From the NCBI RefSeq assembly GCF_039545095.1, contig NZ_BAABRS010000001.1, forward strand, positions 1,364,001-1,428,000: a stretch of 64,000 bases of DNA. The letters are read 5' to 3'. The position numbers and the translations under genes were made by a program. This DNA is from Fodinibius salicampi (lineage in GTDB: Bacteria; Bacteroidota; Rhodothermia; Balneolales; Balneolaceae). Below the pieces are notes generated by a model. The model had not been told where the DNA came from. It ran no database searches and saw only the letters and a list, made by a program, of their open reading frames with translations. This document shows, in pieces, positions 18,213 through 27,392 of the stretch. The number at the start of each line of letters is the position of its first letter. Positions within the stretch are counted from its first letter, which is position 1.

Positions 18213-21200
18213 TTATATCAAGGAACTGCTTGATCCTTTTACTTCCTGCTTATCAAAGGAGAAAGAAAGATCAAGTCCGTTTTCATTATTGATATTAAGA
18301 TCAGCATGTAACTGTTCTATCAGGGTATCAATGATAGTAAATCCCAGAGACTCATTTTTTTTCTCTACAAAATCGGCGTCAAGCCCCCGGCCATTATCCT
18401 TTACTCTTACATGAATAATATTGTCGCGCTGTTTTATGGAAATTAATATTCTTCCTTCTTTCCGGCCTTTAAAGGCATGCTCATATGCATTGGAGATAAC
18501 TTCATTAAGGATTAGCGCACATGGCACGGCCTGATTCACATTTAATGCAAAACTATTATAGTCCAGTTGAAGATCAATTTCTTCTCCATTAATCGTCATC
18601 TGCTTAATATTTTCGATCAGTTCTTTAATGTAAGGACCGAAACTTATCTTGGAAAGCGAACTGGATTCATACAACTTCTCGTGTATGAGAGCCATTGTCT
18701 GTATCCGTTTTTCACTATCGGTAAGTAGCTTTATAACTTCTTTGTTATCCGTATTGAATGACTGTAATTGCAGCATACCGGATACCACTGCTAAATTATT
18801 TTTAACACGGTGATGGATTTCCTGCAGCAGCGTTTCTTTTTCTTTCAACGATTCTTTCAGCTCAATTTCAGACTTAACCCGTTCCGTAACATCCTGGGCG
18901 ACAAGCTGCAATCCTACTTGCCCATCGTCTAATTTAATAGGTACACCCTGTGATTCTAAATACAGCTCTGTCCCGTTATTAACGGTTATCTTATATGTAT
19001 GGATTTCTTTCTCTTTTCCATTAATAACATCTTTTATCCATTTTTGAGCCAGCTTCCGCTCCTTCTCATCCAAAGTAATCAGATCAAAATAATTTTTCCC
19101 AATTAACTCATAGGGAGTTTTAAATCCAAGTATAGCAGCTCCCGATTGGTTGATATATTTAATATTACCCTCAGGATCTAAAAGCTGAATCAGGTTTGGA
19201 TCATTTTGCACCAGGGTTTCCCAACGTTGTTGACTTTCTTGCAATTTTTCTCGGGCAAGAATTCGATCAATTTGTGAAGTGAGGGTCTGTACAATGCTGT
19301 CAAGCAACTGGCGCTCTTCTTTAAGGAAAGGATCTTCTTTAGAAATAGTCCCGGTATCAGTATAAACTAGTTGTATTTTAAGGGGTTTACCTTCAATGCG
19401 AGTACTTTCAGCGGACAACTCCCAATCTGTTTCCCGAAAGTTATCCGTTATAAAGGTATTTCCATCAAATGTAATAGCAGCTTCAGTAAGATCTGGATAC
19501 TGCAAGCCCTGGGGCAAATATTCTACCGCTTTAGCGAGAAGCTCTGAAGCATTCGCATAGTCTTGCTCAGAAAGATTCGAAATACTATACAGGCATCGTT
19601 GCTCCTTTATTCGTTCATTTAATTTCTGAAGGGTCTGTTTCCGATCGGTAATATCCGTAGAAATTCCGCATAAACAGTTTTCAAATCCCGGGACCCCTTT
19701 CAGAGGATACTTTATAGTGTGATAATGCCTTATTCCATCTCCTATGGGCAGCTGTTCCTCCACTTCTATGGTTTGTCCCTTCTCCAGAACCTTTTTGTCA
19801 TTTCCTCTAACATTTTTGTGAAGTTCATCACCAAATAACTGCTTATCCGTTTTACCAATTATTTGATGCCCTTCTAAACCAAAAAGCTCTTTATAACTAT
19901 TATTCACCAAACGCATCCGCCCTTCGGAATCTTTAACATATATAATCGCTTCGGTCTGATTTATAATCGCATCCAGTAAGAGCCGTTGCTGCTCTAATTC
20001 ATATTCAGCTTCCTTAATTTCAGAAAGATTCATGCAGGTACCAACGATAAATTCTTCCCCTCCCTTTGTAAATCTCTTGGCCGTAATATAGTACGGGATA
20101 AGTGCTCCCTCTTTGGTTTTCAGTTCAACTTCCGCATCGGCATGACCGGTTTCAAATGCTTGAGCAATTTTAGATTTTACCAGATCATGATCTTCTTGCT
20201 GGTAAAAATCGAGGGGATCCATTTGTGCTATTTCCTCACCGGAATACCCGAGTTCCTGTGCAAAGTTGTCATTCCACCTTATATAATTTCCTTCTTTATC
20301 AACCACGTAAAACAGACCCGGCAGACTTCCGATGGCTGTATTCGTAAATGCCTTCTCCTCTTCCAGTTTTTGCTCATATCTTTTGCGGTCTGAAATATCG
20401 CGAGTACTGGCCTGAATTTCTATCAAATCTCCATTTTCATCAAAAATGGGCCGCATAACAGATTCCGTCCATTTATACGTCCCTAGCTTCGTACCCTTTC
20501 TAAAAACCCAGCGCTGTATTTCTCCCCGTTCCTGAAAATCCATTGCCTTCCCCTCCAATCGACTTCGATCTTCGGGATGCATATTATCGAATCCATTGTG
20601 TCCGACCAATTCTTCAGGCTCATACCCGATTAATTCTTTACTTGATTGTGATACATACTTGTACGTGCCGTCCGGTGCATGACGGGAAATCATATCTGTA
20701 GAGTTCTCAGCCAGCAACTGAAACTTCTCTTTTTCTGTTTTCAGCTGTTCGTTCTTTTTGGCAAGCTCTTTATTCTTTTGCTCCAGTTTAAGGGAATAAG
20801 AACGTTGCTTGAGTAGAATTTTAATGCGCGTTTTTAGCTGCTGTGGGGTAATGGGGGTATATACAACATCATCTACAAACTCCCATATAGTCTCGTTTTG
20901 CCGGGTTGCCTGTCTATTTGCGGAAAGCAACAAAAATGGCAGAAACAACGGAGCCGTTTCTTCTTTACATTTATGAAAAAGTTCCTCGTTTTCCGAAAAT
21001 GAAATCTCATCCATAATACAGAGATCAAAATCAATATCTGCTGTATTATTGAATCCAATTTTAAAATTCAGGGAATCCGGGATGCACTGCTGTATTAGTT
21101 GAATACCATCAGGATCCTTTACTGATATAAGGATTGTTGCCCTATGATCGTCCGACAATAATAGCGAATTCGAATCCATTTCTATTTCGGATTTTTTCAT
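18213..21200 (-). CDS. Multi-PAS sensor histidine kinase (HisKA_2) with N-terminal pseudo-receiver
   Basis: A 995-residue cytosolic kinase with no membrane segment. Order: a receiver-like domain (about 18-135) with DFDLCIMDE but no acidic pair and no conserved Lys (VVYTPITP); a coiled coil; PAS domains near 160-275, 280-400 and 405-520; a GAF-like region (about 530-650); another PAS (about 660-780); then HisKA_2 with EIHHRVKNNL (His 796/797), N-box LNEVISNAYEHAF and G-box KDNGRGL. HisKA_2 kinases typically sense light, redox or stress through PAS. The C-terminus is nearly identical in layout to that of the kinase at 22351-24558, so they are paralogues. It has its own upstream region. Confidence 0.93.
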   Translation of the reverse strand: MKKSEIEMDSNSLLLSDDHRATILISVKDPDGIQLIQQCIPDSLNFKIGFNNTADIDFDLCIMDEISFSENEELFHKCKEETAPLFLPFLLLSANRQATRQNETIWEFVDDVVYTPITPQQLKTRIKILLKQRSYSLKLEQKNKELAKKNEQLKTEKEKFQLLAENSTDMISRHAPDGTYKYVSQSSKELIGYEPEELVGHNGFDNMHPEDRSRLEGKAMDFQERGEIQRWVFRKGTKLGTYKWTESVMRPIFDENGDLIEIQASTRDISDRKRYEQKLEEEKAFTNTAIGSLPGLFYVVDKEGNYIRWNDNFAQELGYSGEEIAQMDPLDFYQQEDHDLVKSKIAQAFETGHADAEVELKTKEGALIPYYITAKRFTKGGEEFIVGTCMNLSEIKEAEYELEQQRLLLDAIINQTEAIIYVKDSEGRMRLVNNSYKELFGLEGHQIIGKTDKQLFGDELHKNVRGNDKKVLEKGQTIEVEEQLPIGDGIRHYHTIKYPLKGVPGFENCLCGISTDITDRKQTLQKLNERIKEQRCLYSISNLSEQDYANASELLAKAVEYLPQGLQYPDLTEAAITFDGNTFITDNFRETDWELSAESTRIEGKPLKIQLVYTDTGTISKEDPFLKEERQLLDSIVQTLTSQIDRILAREKLQESQQRWETLVQNDPNLIQLLDPEGNIKYINQSGAAILGFKTPYELIGKNYFDLITLDEKERKLAQKWIKDVINGKEKEIHTYKITVNNGTELYLESQGVPIKLDDGQVGLQLVAQDVTERVKSEIELKESLKEKETLLQEIHHRVKNNLAVVSGMLQLQSFNTDNKEVIKLLTDSEKRIQTMALIHEKLYESSSLSKISFGPYIKELIENIKQMTINGEEIDLQLDYNSFALNVNQAVPCALILNEVISNAYEHAFKGRKEGRILISIKQRDNIIHVRVKDNGRGLDADFVEKKNESLGFTIIDTLIEQLHADLNINNENGLDLSFSFDKQEVKGSSSSLI

Positions 21201-21610
21201 TACAGTCTGATCACAGTATTTTGTTTAGAACTGAGTATCTCACTTAGCCGTCAATTAGTTATTATAAAAATGCCACACATATATTTATCTCGCTTAGCCA
21301 GCCCTTCTATATAATATCAATTGCAGATATTACCGTAAATGTACCGCAATTACATCTAACCCTTACCAATAAAAATTAGCTAAAAAATTTATGAGATGGC
21401 CAATGCCCCAAAAGCTTTATTAACATTTTTTAAGATAAGCAATTGTTTTCTACGTAGAAAGACGTAAAACACCTATTTTTCAATACGTATTTTAACTTAT
21501 CTATGCTTGCTTTTAATAAGTGAGACTGAATTCTCTGTAAAAAATTATCATTCTCCAGCATCTTCCATTAAATTCCTCCAACTTTTCATAAGACATTAAA
21601 TAACAAATCT
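21201..21610. other. Intergenic region between divergent kinase and ferredoxin genes
   Basis: About 410 bp, AT-rich, with no gene seen. It must hold the promoters of two divergent genes. The one structure noted is the TACG/AAAAATAGG element near 21470-21489, with two further ACGTA copies just upstream of it on the + strand. Confidence 0.6.
21470..21489 (-). promoter_or_regulatory. Putative shared signalling-island operator, site 1
   Basis: On the minus strand it reads TACGTATTGAAAAATAGGTG, and ACGTC follows a few bases later. Similar sites lie upstream of the KaiC operon and the response regulator. It sits about 270 bp upstream of the 995-residue kinase. Function inferred only from recurrence. 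Confidence 0.35.
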
Positions 21611-21970
21611 ATGAACCGACGCGTACAAAAAAAGGCCAAAGAGCTCCATGTAGATAAGATTCAGCGGCATATTTTTCTCTGTGCAGACCAGACAAAACCG
21701 AAATGCTGCAAAAAGGAAATCGGTCTAGAGGCATGGGCATTTCTAAAAAAAAGACTTAGTGAATTAAATCTCGATGGTGCCGGGGGAATTTACAGGACCA
21801 AAGCCAATTGTTTGCGTATCTGTAAAAAAGGACCGGTTGCGGTGGTTTATCCGGAGGGTATTTGGTACCATTCCTGTACGCCCAATGTGCTGGAACGGAT
21901 CATCCAGGAACATCTCATCCAAGGGAACCCTGTTAAGGAATACATGTTTGCAGAACAGCCGCTGCAATAA
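21611..21970 (+). CDS. Thioredoxin-like [2Fe-2S] ferredoxin domain protein
   Basis: A 119-residue protein whose cysteine pattern ([10 protein letters not shown] near residues 29-38, then CLRICK near 71) and fold cues ([23 protein letters not shown]) match thioredoxin-fold [2Fe-2S] ferredoxins, also seen as NuoE/Shethna-like small proteins. It probably carries electrons in the cytosol; the partner is unknown. It is divergent from the 995-residue kinase and convergent with the PAS protein (stop codons 6 bp apart), so it sits inside the signalling island without sharing its strand. Confidence 0.82.
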
Positions 21971-21976
21971 AGTTTT

Positions 21977-22333
21977 TTAATTAAAAACTTTAATAGAACG
22001 AGCTAACATAGCCTCTTTTTTATTATAGATAACAGGACTTTCAACCATCAGTGTTACAAAACTGCTTCCATCCGATGTTCTGGGGATAAATAAGTGTTTC
22101 CGAAGCTCTGGTTCCAAATCATCCTGAAAATCTGTCGGAATATCTTCTCCAATAAAATCGTCATGAAAGAGATATCTAAATTGAATTTTGGAATATCCGT
22201 AGGCGTTAATGGCAGCGTTATTTACTTCCAATATTCGTTTATTCGATCTTGCATAAATCCACATTGGAATCGGATTAAACCAAAAAAAAGTGTCTGACAA
22301 GTTCTCGTTATAAAAGTTTTTCTTTTCCATCAT
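21977..22333 (-). CDS. Single PAS-domain protein
   Basis: A 118-residue protein made of one PAS domain: FFWFNPIPMWIYARSNKRILEVNNAA, then YGYSKIQF and a C-terminal beta hairpin. It has no output domain. It follows the 735-residue kinase by 17 bp on the same strand, third in the KaiC-kinase-PAS unit, so it may be a detached sensor or adaptor that dimerises with the PAS domains of the kinase. Ligand unknown. The C-terminal part is short for a full PAS, but the main fold is present. Confidence 0.75.
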   Translation of the reverse strand: MMEKKNFYNENLSDTFFWFNPIPMWIYARSNKRILEVNNAAINAYGYSKIQFRYLFHDDFIGEDIPTDFQDDLEPELRKHLFIPRTSDGSSFVTLMVESPVIYNKKEAMLARSIKVFN

Positions 22334-22350
22334 AATACGCCAAATTAATG

Positions 22351-24558
22351 TTAAACTAACGTGCTTGAAGAGCCTTTGACTTCTTGCTTTTCAAAAGAAA
22401 TTGCAAACGAAAAGCCGTCATCGTTTTTCATCTCTTTATCAGCTTCAAGCTGGGTTATTAACGTATCGATAATAGCAAAACCCATAGAGTTATTTTTCTT
22501 TTCACTAAAATCATCGGGAAGACCCGAACCGTTATCTTTTATTCTTATTAAAATGGTATTGTCCTGTTCTTCCAGTGAAACACTTATACAACCATTTTTT
22601 TTGTCACTAAAAGCATGCTCAAATGCATTGGAAACGACTTCATTGATCATCAGGGCACAAGGCACCGCTTGGTTCACATTCAGATTAAAAGAGTCAAACT
22701 CAAGATTAAGCTCAATATCTTCTGAATTGACCGATACCTGTCTGACATTATCAAGCAAATCTTTAACATAAGATCCGAACTCAATTTGTGAAAGCGACTG
22801 AGACTGATACAGCTTTTCATGTATCAGAGCCATGGTTTTAATACGATTTTTACTGGCACTCAATAACCTTTTAACTTCTTTATTTTCGGTACTAAGCGTC
22901 TGCAGCTCCATCATGCCCGATACTACGGCCAGGTTATTTTTAACACGATGATGAATTTCCTGCAAAAGCGTTTCTTTCTCAGAAAGCGACACTTTAAGCT
23001 GCTGTTCGTATTTTATGCGATCAGTAACATCGGTAGAAATTCCGCAGAGGCAATTTTCAAATCCGTAGATCTCCTTCAATGGGTATTTAATCGTATGATA
23101 TACCCTTGTTTCATATTTATTGATTGGAAGTTCTTCCTGAAGCTCAACCATTTCATCAGTTTCAAATACAATACTATCATACGGCTCCACTTTTTCGGCA
23201 AATGTTTGTCCGTGCACCTCCTCGGATGTTTTTCCAATAACCTCCTCCCTACTCAAATCAAAAATGCGTAAGTAACTTTCATTGACAAGTTGGTATTTCC
23301 GGTCTTTATCTTTTACATAAACAAGAGACTTTGTTTGGTTAATCACAGCATCCAGCAACTGACGCTGTTGCTCAAGTTCATACTGCGCTTCCTTTATGGC
23401 AGATAAATTCATACAAAAACCAACAATGTAATCTTTATCTCCCCTGCTAAAACTTTTTGCCTTTACATAATAGGGAATTAGCTCGCCGCTCTTAGCTAGC
23501 ATTTGCATCTCTGCTTCTGCACTACCCGTTATAGAAGCCTCAATAAGTTTAGAAATTGCAAATTCCCGATCCTCTTTGTGATAGAATTCCAGCGGATGCA
23601 TTTGCTCTACTTCTTCATCAGAATATCCCAACTCCCGATCTATATTATTCCATTTTACAATATTAAGATCCTCGTCAATCAAATAGAAGAGTTCGGGTAA
23701 GCTCTGGATTGATTTATCAATAAACTCTTTCTCTTCCCTGAGCTTTTTCTCAAAATCTTTTCGTTCTGATATGTCTCGCGTACTGGCCTGAATTTCTATT
23801 ATTTTTCCTGTCTCCTTATCGCCAATAGGTCTCATTACAGATTCAACCCACTTATAATCGCTCTCCTTTGTTTTTTTCCGAAATTCCCATCGCTCTATCT
23901 TATTATCTTCAAAGCTCCTGACTTCCTCCCGTAATCGTTCGCTGTCTTCGGGATGCATGTTATCTAATGCATTTTGCCCCATCAGCTCTTCCGGGGTATA
24001 GCCTGTCAACTCTTTTGAGGCAGGTGAAACATACAGGTAGGTCCCATCAGGAGTATGACGAGAAATCATATCCGTAGAATTCTCAGTAATCAACTGGTAC
24101 TTGCGCTTCTCCTCGGCCAGTTCTCTATTTTTTTCTTCCAGTTTCAGAGAGTATTCACGCTGTTTTAACAGAAGGCTAATACGCGATTGCAACAGCTTTG
24201 GGGATGCGGGAATATACACCACATCGTCAGCCAACTCTAGCATGGTAGCATTGTTTCTGATTGCCTTCTTATTGGGTGACAATAGTAAGAAAGGCAAAAA
24301 GATCGGCGCAGCCGTATCTTTTAGCTCCTGCAACGACTGCTTATTGGCCTCAAACGATGGATGATCCATGATACAAAGATCAAAATCCCGATTGGCTATA
24401 CCATTACTACTGGTTTCTATAGCCATAGAGTCGGGCAGAAACTGCTTTATCAGTTTCAAATCCTGAGTATTATGGACCGATAACAAAAGCACCGGCTGGC
24501 CTTCGGTACTCAATTCCGGGTAATTATATGTCGAGCCCATAGTATCCATGATAATCAC
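22351..24558 (-). CDS. PAS sensor histidine kinase (HisKA_2) with N-terminal pseudo-receiver
   Basis: A 735-residue paralogue of the 995-residue kinase upstream in the coordinates. Order: pseudo-receiver (about 20-135, DFDLCIMDH present, acidic pair and Lys absent); coiled coil; three PAS domains (about 155-275, 280-395, 400-515); HisKA_2 with EIHHRVKNNL (His 536/537), N-box INEVVSNAFEHAF, G-box KDNGSGL. No membrane segment. It lacks the GAF-like region and extra PAS of its paralogue. The start lies 11 bp after the KaiC-like gene stop, implying cotranslation with it. It is likely to receive or give phosphoryl groups within this module. Confidence 0.92.
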   Translation of the reverse strand: MIIMDTMGSTYNYPELSTEGQPVLLLSVHNTQDLKLIKQFLPDSMAIETSSNGIANRDFDLCIMDHPSFEANKQSLQELKDTAAPIFLPFLLLSPNKKAIRNNATMLELADDVVYIPASPKLLQSRISLLLKQREYSLKLEEKNRELAEEKRKYQLITENSTDMISRHTPDGTYLYVSPASKELTGYTPEELMGQNALDNMHPEDSERLREEVRSFEDNKIERWEFRKKTKESDYKWVESVMRPIGDKETGKIIEIQASTRDISERKDFEKKLREEKEFIDKSIQSLPELFYLIDEDLNIVKWNNIDRELGYSDEEVEQMHPLEFYHKEDREFAISKLIEASITGSAEAEMQMLAKSGELIPYYVKAKSFSRGDKDYIVGFCMNLSAIKEAQYELEQQRQLLDAVINQTKSLVYVKDKDRKYQLVNESYLRIFDLSREEVIGKTSEEVHGQTFAEKVEPYDSIVFETDEMVELQEELPINKYETRVYHTIKYPLKEIYGFENCLCGISTDVTDRIKYEQQLKVSLSEKETLLQEIHHRVKNNLAVVSGMMELQTLSTENKEVKRLLSASKNRIKTMALIHEKLYQSQSLSQIEFGSYVKDLLDNVRQVSVNSEDIELNLEFDSFNLNVNQAVPCALMINEVVSNAFEHAFSDKKNGCISVSLEEQDNTILIRIKDNGSGLPDDFSEKKNNSMGFAIIDTLITQLEADKEMKNDDGFSFAISFEKQEVKGSSSTLV

Positions 24559-24569
24559 TCCGTAAAGAC

Positions 24570-26012
24570 CTACTTGTCAACTTCTGGCGTACCAGATAAA
24601 ATTCCACGCATATTTTCCAGTTTATCTCCAACCTTGATACCTTCGGAGGTAATTTGAAATTCACGAATTGATTTTTCAAAATCACTTAACCGTTTCTTTA
24701 GCACGCCGACGGCTTTTCTTAGTTGTCCACTTACTTCCAGGTATCGCAGAAAGATGATATTGTCAGCTAGATAGCTTGCATTCATATTCGTAGTCGAAAA
24801 TCCGCCTGTCACATTTTTTGTCTCATTCAACAAAAGCGTAGTAACACCCATATTCTGCAAGTACACAGTGAGCGCATGCAACCGTTCCAGGGTATTTTTA
24901 CCGCGCACCGCCATATTATATCCCCCTACAGCATCGATCATAACAATTGAAGTGCCATTTTCCTCCACATCCCTACGGATGATTTTCGCAAATTCATCCG
25001 GGGAATAGGAAAGTGGTTCTACCGACATAATATTAAGAAACCCCGCCTCAAGCATCTTTCGAATAGGAGTGTTAATCATTTCGGAACGCTGTATAATCAG
25101 CTCTTTCGATTCTTCGAAGGTATATACGGCAGAACGTTCATTACGCGAAGCGGCTTCTTTAATAAACTGTAGTCCAAGGTTGGTCTTTCCAACTCCCGTC
25201 GGACCAACAATCAGGCTGGTTGTTCCTTTTTCAATACCGCCGTTAAGCAGCTTGTCAACCCCCTCCACGCCTGAGGATAGTACCCCTTTTGCGTAAGTTC
25301 GGCTATAATTATTGGGACGCAACCGCGGATAAATAACGATTCCATCTCCTGTTATTTTGAAAGCATGTTCCCCACTCAAATAATCAGACCCCCTGAATTT
25401 CGTGACGCTTAGGGTTCTCCAATCAGATTTATTATCCAGCTTTATAATACCGTCAACCCAAAAGGCGGCGTCGTCCCCATTACCACCATTACTACCCAGC
25501 GATTCAGAGGTCATCATCAGCGTGGCACCGCGTTTGGTAACATAATTTACCAGCGACAGGGTCAGTTTCCGCATTTGATAGGGATCCTGATTCAATAATC
25601 GCAACATCGTAAAGGAATCAAATAGGATGCGACTGGGGGAAAGTTCATCTACCGCCTTTGTCACAGCTTTCATAATCGGCCCCTGCTCCACATCCGCAGA
25701 AGAAAACACGCTGTACTGCTCATTATTTTCACTTAGGTCATCACTCGGGCTTAAATCCAGACCCACTACGCCAGAAAGATCAATGCCAAACTGTCTGGCA
25801 TTTTGGAGCAGACTCTCTTTCGACTCAACCATCGTAATACATAGGGCATCTTCCCCCTTATCCAGGGCTTGCTTTAAAAAGTGAAAGCCCAGTGTTGATT
25901 TACCCGAACCCGGCCCTCCTTGTACCAGATAGGCTTTTTGAGGGATTAGTCCACCGTGCAGGATTTCATCTAAGCCGTCTAACCCAGTTGAAAGTTTGTC
26001 AAAGTCACTCAT
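24570..26012 (-). CDS. KaiC-like dual RecA/P-loop ATPase
   Basis: A 480-residue protein with two KaiC domains. CI has Walker A GGPGSGKST (32-40); the paired catalytic glutamates are only half kept (M61-V62-E63). CII has Walker A GPTGVGKT (270-277) and an intact FEE (299-301). Aligned by eye to cyanobacterial KaiC, the phospho-site pair Ser431/Thr432 corresponds to Ser413/Tyr414 (NASYLADNIIFLRY). It is first in a tight unit with a histidine kinase and a PAS protein. No KaiA or KaiB is present. The family can act as clock, stress or signalling ATPase; here a two-component link is inferred from context. Confidence 0.92.
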   Translation of the reverse strand: MSDFDKLSTGLDGLDEILHGGLIPQKAYLVQGGPGSGKSTLGFHFLKQALDKGEDALCITMVESKESLLQNARQFGIDLSGVVGLDLSPSDDLSENNEQYSVFSSADVEQGPIMKAVTKAVDELSPSRILFDSFTMLRLLNQDPYQMRKLTLSLVNYVTKRGATLMMTSESLGSNGGNGDDAAFWVDGIIKLDNKSDWRTLSVTKFRGSDYLSGEHAFKITGDGIVIYPRLRPNNYSRTYAKGVLSSGVEGVDKLLNGGIEKGTTSLIVGPTGVGKTNLGLQFIKEAASRNERSAVYTFEESKELIIQRSEMINTPIRKMLEAGFLNIMSVEPLSYSPDEFAKIIRRDVEENGTSIVMIDAVGGYNMAVRGKNTLERLHALTVYLQNMGVTTLLLNETKNVTGGFSTTNMNASYLADNIIFLRYLEVSGQLRKAVGVLKKRLSDFEKSIREFQITSEGIKVGDKLENMRGILSGTPEVDK

Positions 26013-26136
26013 TAATAATTATAGATATTTTATATATAAATTAATGTCTTCTAAAAAACCTAAAGAGTATTTAAATCTTCGTATTTAACTTATTTGGTAA
26101 CGTAAGGGAGTACAAACAAAGTTTGTTGACGTGATA

Positions 26137-26158
26137 TACCTATTTTTTAAGATGCGTA
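26137..26158 (-). promoter_or_regulatory. Putative shared signalling-island operator, site 2
   Basis: The minus strand carries TACGCA, then 10 bases, then TAGGTA, and ACGTC follows 6 bases on, as at site 1. It is about 125 bp upstream of the KaiC-like gene and downstream of the frameshifted receiver gene. Confidence 0.35.
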
Positions 26159-26230
26159 CTTATACCTACACGAGAGTTAAAAAGGCGTAGTTAACTGGTA
26201 GATATCAATAAAGGTTGGGCCAAAAGAAGA

Positions 26231-26589
26231 CTACTTTTCAGCAAACTGAGAAACAATATGCAATAGTTCTTTAGTATCAGAATATATAGGTAGGCACTCA
26301 TTTACACCAGCTTCTATTAACGGATCGCTTCGTTCACTTAAGCCGTCTTCACAAAGGGCAACAAGATATTTAGAAAGCTTTTTTCGCAAATGCCTCGTAT
26401 ATATTCATCAGGTTTATAAGGCGATGAAATGAGGTCAACAAGTGAAACTTGGTATTTTCTGTCTATAGGTATTCCTTCCAGAAATTGGTCATGGGTTATA
26501 TGCTCAATTTCCCAATCGTCTTCTTCATTGAGTATTGATATGATAGCGTCATTTTGTATCGATTGGTCACCTATTAGTAAGATTCGCAT
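26231..26589 (-). pseudogene. Receiver-like (REC) protein interrupted by a one-base frameshift
   Basis: From ATG 26589 (MRILLIGDQ) the frame encodes a receiver-like fold with VSLVDL, then ends early at an out-of-frame stop (26338). A -1 shift at the A6 run on the minus strand (26379-26384) opens a frame to a TAG at 26231 that reads YLVALCEDGLSERSDP and ECLPIYSDTKELLHIV, a typical receiver C-terminal half. Restored, the protein is about 119 residues. The phospho-Asp is present, but one of the acidic pair and the Lys are not. It is stand-alone, between the KaiC operon and the regulator gene. Mutation, assembly error, or slippage at A6 could explain it. Confidence 0.75.
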
Positions 26590-26753: not shown

Positions 26754-27392
26754 TTACTTCAGGGTAAACAGATTGTTTTTGATTGCAAATTTTACCAAGC
26801 CGGCCGTATTTTTAGCTCCTGTTTTTTGCATCAAATTACGGCGGTGAGCATCTACTGTTCGTACACTAATACCCAGTTCTTCAGCAATTTCGCGATTTAT
26901 TTGTTCTCTGCAGATTAATTGCAGAACCTGTAATTCCCGCTCGGTAAGGTCGGAAACCCGTTCACTGGTAGAACGAACCTCTTTCCCCTTAATAAGCAAC
27001 CCTATGGTATCGTTGCAGAGGTACTGATTTCCGGAATATACCTCTTTAATAGCTTTAATAAGCTCTTCGGCTCCCCGTTTTTTTAAAATATAGCCCGATG
27101 CACCGGCCTGCATTACATCTTTTACCTGCCGGGGATCTTCTTCATCGCTCATAGCCAGAATATGAGTTTCTAGATGATCCCCCAAGATTTTTGTTATGGT
27201 ACTCAAAGGATCCAAATCCGGGATATCTATATCGAGCACAACAACCTCTATGTTATCTCCTTCGGGATCATAGGGACATAGTTCCTCTTTATTTTTAGCC
27301 GTACCAATTACGTTAATATCAACATCTTCGGATAAGATTTTTGTAATACCATCTCGAACGATCTCGTGGTGTACTGCAATCAGGATATTCAC
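26754..27392 (-). CDS. NarL/LuxR-type response regulator, atypical receiver
   Basis: A 212-residue protein. The receiver domain (1-120) keeps phospho-acceptor Asp54 (VVLDIDIP), Ser82 and Lys104, but the usual Asp-Asp pair is replaced (IAVHHEIVRDG at 5-15). The C-terminal LuxR helix-turn-helix has LTERELQVLQLICRE and ISVRTVDAHRRNLMQKTGA. It probably regulates transcription, perhaps of the kinase and KaiC genes beside it. It is the only DNA-binding output in the signalling island. Loss of the acidic pair suggests altered phosphorylation or constitutive dimerisation. Confidence 0.92.
   Translation of the reverse strand: MNILIAVHHEIVRDGITKILSEDVDINVIGTAKNKEELCPYDPEGDNIEVVVLDIDIPDLDPLSTITKILGDHLETHILAMSDEEDPRQVKDVMQAGASGYILKKRGAEELIKAIKEVYSGNQYLCNDTIGLLIKGKEVRSTSERVSDLTERELQVLQLICREQINREIAEELGISVRTVDAHRRNLMQKTGAKNTAGLVKFAIKNNLFTLK

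Follow-up and report, generated by a model that had tools for sequence, protein, structure and literature searches.

A small receiver-like gene lying beside a KaiC gene in Fodinibius salicampi is broken by a one-base change of reading frame, and we consider it, with a probability of roughly 0.7, to be a young pseudogene carrying a single lesion, namely a recent one-base indel. The analysis covered a window of 64,000 nucleotides (the whole stretch of DNA analysed), and all positions are counted from its first letter unless a contig is named. According to the proposed course of events, the ancestral gene would have encoded a stand-alone pseudo-receiver, with a LuxR-type response regulator on one side and KaiC on the other, an arrangement found in three species of one Balneolaceae genus. 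The lineage leading to this genome would then have lost one base within an A-run at codons 69–71, presumably by replication slippage that shortened seven A to six. Translation would thereby leave the frame after alpha3 and encounter a stop 13 codons further on, giving a product of 83 residues without beta4, alpha4, beta5 and alpha5, which is very probably unable to fold or function and would thus amount to a loss of function. The correct annotation is a frameshifted receiver gene, neither two genes nor a recoded gene, and the finding has little significance beyond annotation.

The split gene spans 26231–26589 on the minus strand, comprising 359 bases, i.e., 120 codons minus one base (Table 1). 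The run of six A, the stop of the first frame and the end of the -1 frame lie exactly where the sequence-only reading had placed them. The start codon is backed by an orthologue, L016, in which a stop codon is located just upstream of the corresponding ATG. When an intact orthologue was used as the query, adjoining matches were obtained in both frames, with E = 9e-22 in the first and 1.7e-4 in the second, and a family profile matched the first half at E = 2e-18 and the second at E = 0.001, in agreement with the receiver-like C-terminus proposed earlier for the -1 frame. Since this downstream frame is homologous to the C-terminus of the orthologues, it is more than a chance open frame, and an open frame arising by chance was ruled out. 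As a separate observation, residues 1–15 of the receiver (MRILLIGDQSIQNDA, 26545–26589) are identical in the three species, while the remaining upstream part is only 36–49% identical across them; good conservation extends to the DNA flanking the start codon.

Table 1. Features of the split receiver gene and its neighbours in the window.
Feature	Position	Strand	Remarks
First (zero) frame	26338..26589	-	ATG at 26589; 83 codons (83 aa), of which 70 N-terminal receiver-like and 13 out of frame; TAA stop at 26340–26338
A6 run	26379..26384	-	GAA AAA AGC; one-base frame loss relative to orthologues (gap in DNA alignment); -1 frame open from here
-1 frame	26231..26380	-	C-terminal 49 codons of the same receiver gene (KLSKYLVALCEDGLSERSDPLIEAGVNECLPIYSDTKELLHIVSQFAEK); TAG stop at 26233–26231
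LuxR-type response regulator (receiver + GerE)	26754..27392	-	Intact, upstream neighbour; 80% identical in both relatives
Double-domain KaiC-like ATPase	24570..26012	-	Intact, downstream neighbour
PAS / HisKA_2 histidine kinase	22351..24558	-	After KaiC

Relatives were found by searching with the adjoining KaiC gene, which led to two uncultured Aliifodinibius genomes (L015 and L016) holding the only two close orthologues of the split gene in the collections searched. In both, the small receiver gene is a single uninterrupted frame of 119 codons. The joined window protein is 45–51% identical to these orthologues, and the DNA alignment with them contains only one gap, one base long, which falls precisely on the A-run. 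At the site of the break, the relatives read GAG AAG AAA and GAG CAA AAA, in frame, and hence the A-run is not common to them. The earlier reading had named orthologues that stop in the same place, without a conserved extension, as evidence against its proposal; in both L015 and L016 the extension is present and in frame. Across the order, the family profile found matches in 96 of 129 genomes, many of them receiver domains of ordinary LuxR-type regulators rather than orthologues; none of the matches listed has an internal stop, and only the window copy among them is in two pieces. As is expected of an indel pseudogene, the orthologues are therefore intact across the lesion, and among the matches listed the lesion is limited to one genome. 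The one-base break, the intact orthologues, the unconserved site and the occurrence in one genome are features which the gene shares with single-indel pseudogenes and singleton frame transitions (PMC3711429), from which it shows no notable difference. The break is thus best taken as an unremarkable recent lesion or, less likely, as a sequencing slip.

As for the protein itself, a single-sequence Pfam scan of the window protein gave no receiver match, and the receiver relationship is visible only with a family profile. This profile matches solved receiver domains of natural proteins, including NarL, VraR, DesR and CheY, with E down to 1e-7, and 8 of the 15 family members match PF00072 at E up to 0.01; the one displayed in full scores below the curated cut-off. 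An AlphaFold2 model of the L016 orthologue, computed from a two-sequence alignment with two of five models good, adopts the (beta-alpha)5 receiver fold (pLDDT 83.6), and its best matches in the PDB are receivers, with TM about 0.8. By fold and profile similarity, the family thus belongs with the receiver domains of PF00072, and the earlier description as a receiver gene holds in this sense; it does not hold for a canonical receiver, since the conserved Thr and Lys are missing. The canonical phosphoacceptor set (acidic pair, Asp, Thr/Ser and Lys) is incomplete: the family does not conserve the Thr/Ser of beta4 or the Lys of beta5, the acidic pair is reduced, and the phosphoacceptor Asp, which the window protein and its orthologues retain, is Asn in several homologues. 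The lack of conservation of Thr/Ser and Lys, together with the replacement of Asp by Asn in part of the family, therefore indicates a pseudo-receiver. The family resembles those atypical receivers of the PF00072 superfamily that lie next to a NarL/LuxR-type regulator in its fold and in its profile matches to NarL, VraR and CheY, and differs from them in the residues named above and in having no output domain. The break falls at residue 70, after alpha3 and before beta4, and removes the last two fifths of the domain, from beta4 to alpha5.

The age of the lesion was judged from codon comparisons. In the downstream part, pN/pS is 0.62 and 0.53 for the window gene compared with each of the relatives, and 0.66 when the two intact relatives are compared with one another. 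The absence of extra downstream divergence points to a young break and rules out an old pseudogene, although a young lesion, a functional recoded gene and a sequencing error would all alike show no further decay. In the upstream part, pN/pS is 0.33–0.44, and the receiver gene as a whole, at 0.33–0.66 as compared with 0.15–0.20 for its LuxR and KaiC neighbours, is loosely constrained. The KaiC loci of two congeners (L187 and L186) have no stand-alone receiver gene before KaiC. This absence, together with the loose constraint, indicates that loss of the receiver is tolerable and compatible with a retained KaiC–histidine kinase operon, and the receiver gene seems dispensable.

The alternative that survives best is a sequencing or assembly error, in which case the true sequence would be one A longer and the gene intact, encoding a 119-residue protein; we regard this as unlikely, but deserving serious attention. 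One-base deletions in homopolymers are a common type of sequencing error, and apart from the break the gene is complete, with constraint reaching as far as its end. In addition, according to a study of frame transitions in prokaryotes, most singletons validated by similarity are expected to be sequencing errors (PMC3711429). However, in a comparison of 0.8 Mb of the relative G018 against 1.6 Mb of this genome, made as a proxy for error, none of the 582 homopolymers of at least six bases within 332 intact orthologous genes of this assembly caused a frame break, which makes systematic homopolymer error unlikely. Ten split matches occurred among about 475 matched open frames, a number that includes antisense shadows; most of the ten overlap better matches (antisense or shadow frames) or represent N-terminal mismatches, and the clear internal breaks are two, one in the window receiver gene and the other near G000:C1:40715 in a methyltransferase-like gene. 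Thus, a systematically poor assembly is unsupported, given 582 runs without a break and two clear breaks only, and a sequencing error is less likely than a real deletion. The methyltransferase-like gene (G000:C1:40208-40856, L081) shows a one-base frame change relative to G018, with no long homopolymer at the switch (C1:~40715).

That the A-run serves programmed -1 ribosomal frameshifting or transcriptional slippage, so that both a short and a full-length receiver would be made, appears very improbable, even though the run coincides exactly with the switch and the frame beyond it is open and under constraint. The switch codons GAA AAA AGC contain no X XXY YYZ heptamer in the zero frame, and their register leaves the A_AAA_AAG heptamer out of the phase needed. 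No stimulatory RNA fold was found in the 95 bases downstream (z = 0.12 relative to shuffles), the orthologues have no conserved frameshift site, and in the relatives the protein is encoded in one frame. Transcriptional slippage usually requires eight or nine or more A/T, as against six A here; selection against it usually becomes apparent at nine A or T (PMC1088944), and for programmed cases the run lengths cited exceed seven (PMC3711429). Furthermore, a short form truncated of beta4 to alpha5 would, judging from the modelled fold, hardly be plausible as a regulator. The dnaX-type programmed frameshift (A_AAA_AAG) likewise has an A-rich switch site, but the window site differs from it in its register and in lacking both conservation and a downstream hairpin. 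A programmed shift is recognised by a conserved site and a cluster of frameshifted genes, singletons being indels or sequencing errors (PMC3711429), and by these criteria the split receiver is a singleton. Programmed frameshifting and transcriptional slippage were thus rejected on register, run length, the unconserved site and the missing RNA structure. Among the three options of the sequence-only reading, the recent indel is therefore the best supported, an isolated sequencing error is less likely, and programmed slippage finds no support. Slimmer still is the chance that recoding at the A6 run arose recently in this species from an ordinary gene, giving two receiver forms beside KaiC, one short and one full-length. 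Least probable is reversible phase variation, in which changes in run length would switch the receiver on and off: a homopolymer does sit at the switch site, but A6 and A7 are short for such switching, hundreds of similar runs lie inside intact genes of the genome, and the relatives have no run here.

The gene order around the lesion is identical in the window, L015 and L016, beginning with threonine dehydratase-like and oxidase genes on the opposite strand, continuing with the LuxR-type regulator, the small receiver gene, KaiC and the PAS histidine kinase, and followed by a small PAS protein and a ferredoxin-like gene. The position beside KaiC, as proposed before, is borne out by the double-domain KaiC-like ATPase downstream. 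KaiB was not found in the 20 genomes searched, and neither this genome nor any of the 11 congeners searched yielded it, so that the double-domain protein (24570–26012) occurs in a genus without detected KaiB. In many Balneolales genomes, mostly without KaiC, a small atypical receiver gene (L119-L138; for example, G014:C3:291698-292824) lies ~0.8 kb downstream of the gene for a LuxR-type regulator and is followed by that for a PAS/HisKA_2 kinase, and the three constitute a conserved three-gene signalling module. The Balneolales family of atypical receivers offers a modest starting point for work on signalling and on KaiC in the absence of KaiB. In the window, the small PAS and ferredoxin-like genes lie between two related kinases of the PAS/HisKA_2 type (735 and 995 aa; 18213–24558), and in both close relatives the place of these kinases is taken by a single longer one of about 1000–1130 aa; the pair looks like a tandem duplication. 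Finally, a block before KaiC at 26090–26170 (AAAATAGG..T.T.ACGTCA.CAAA.T.TGTTT) is conserved in both relatives and is likely to represent a putative promoter or operator.
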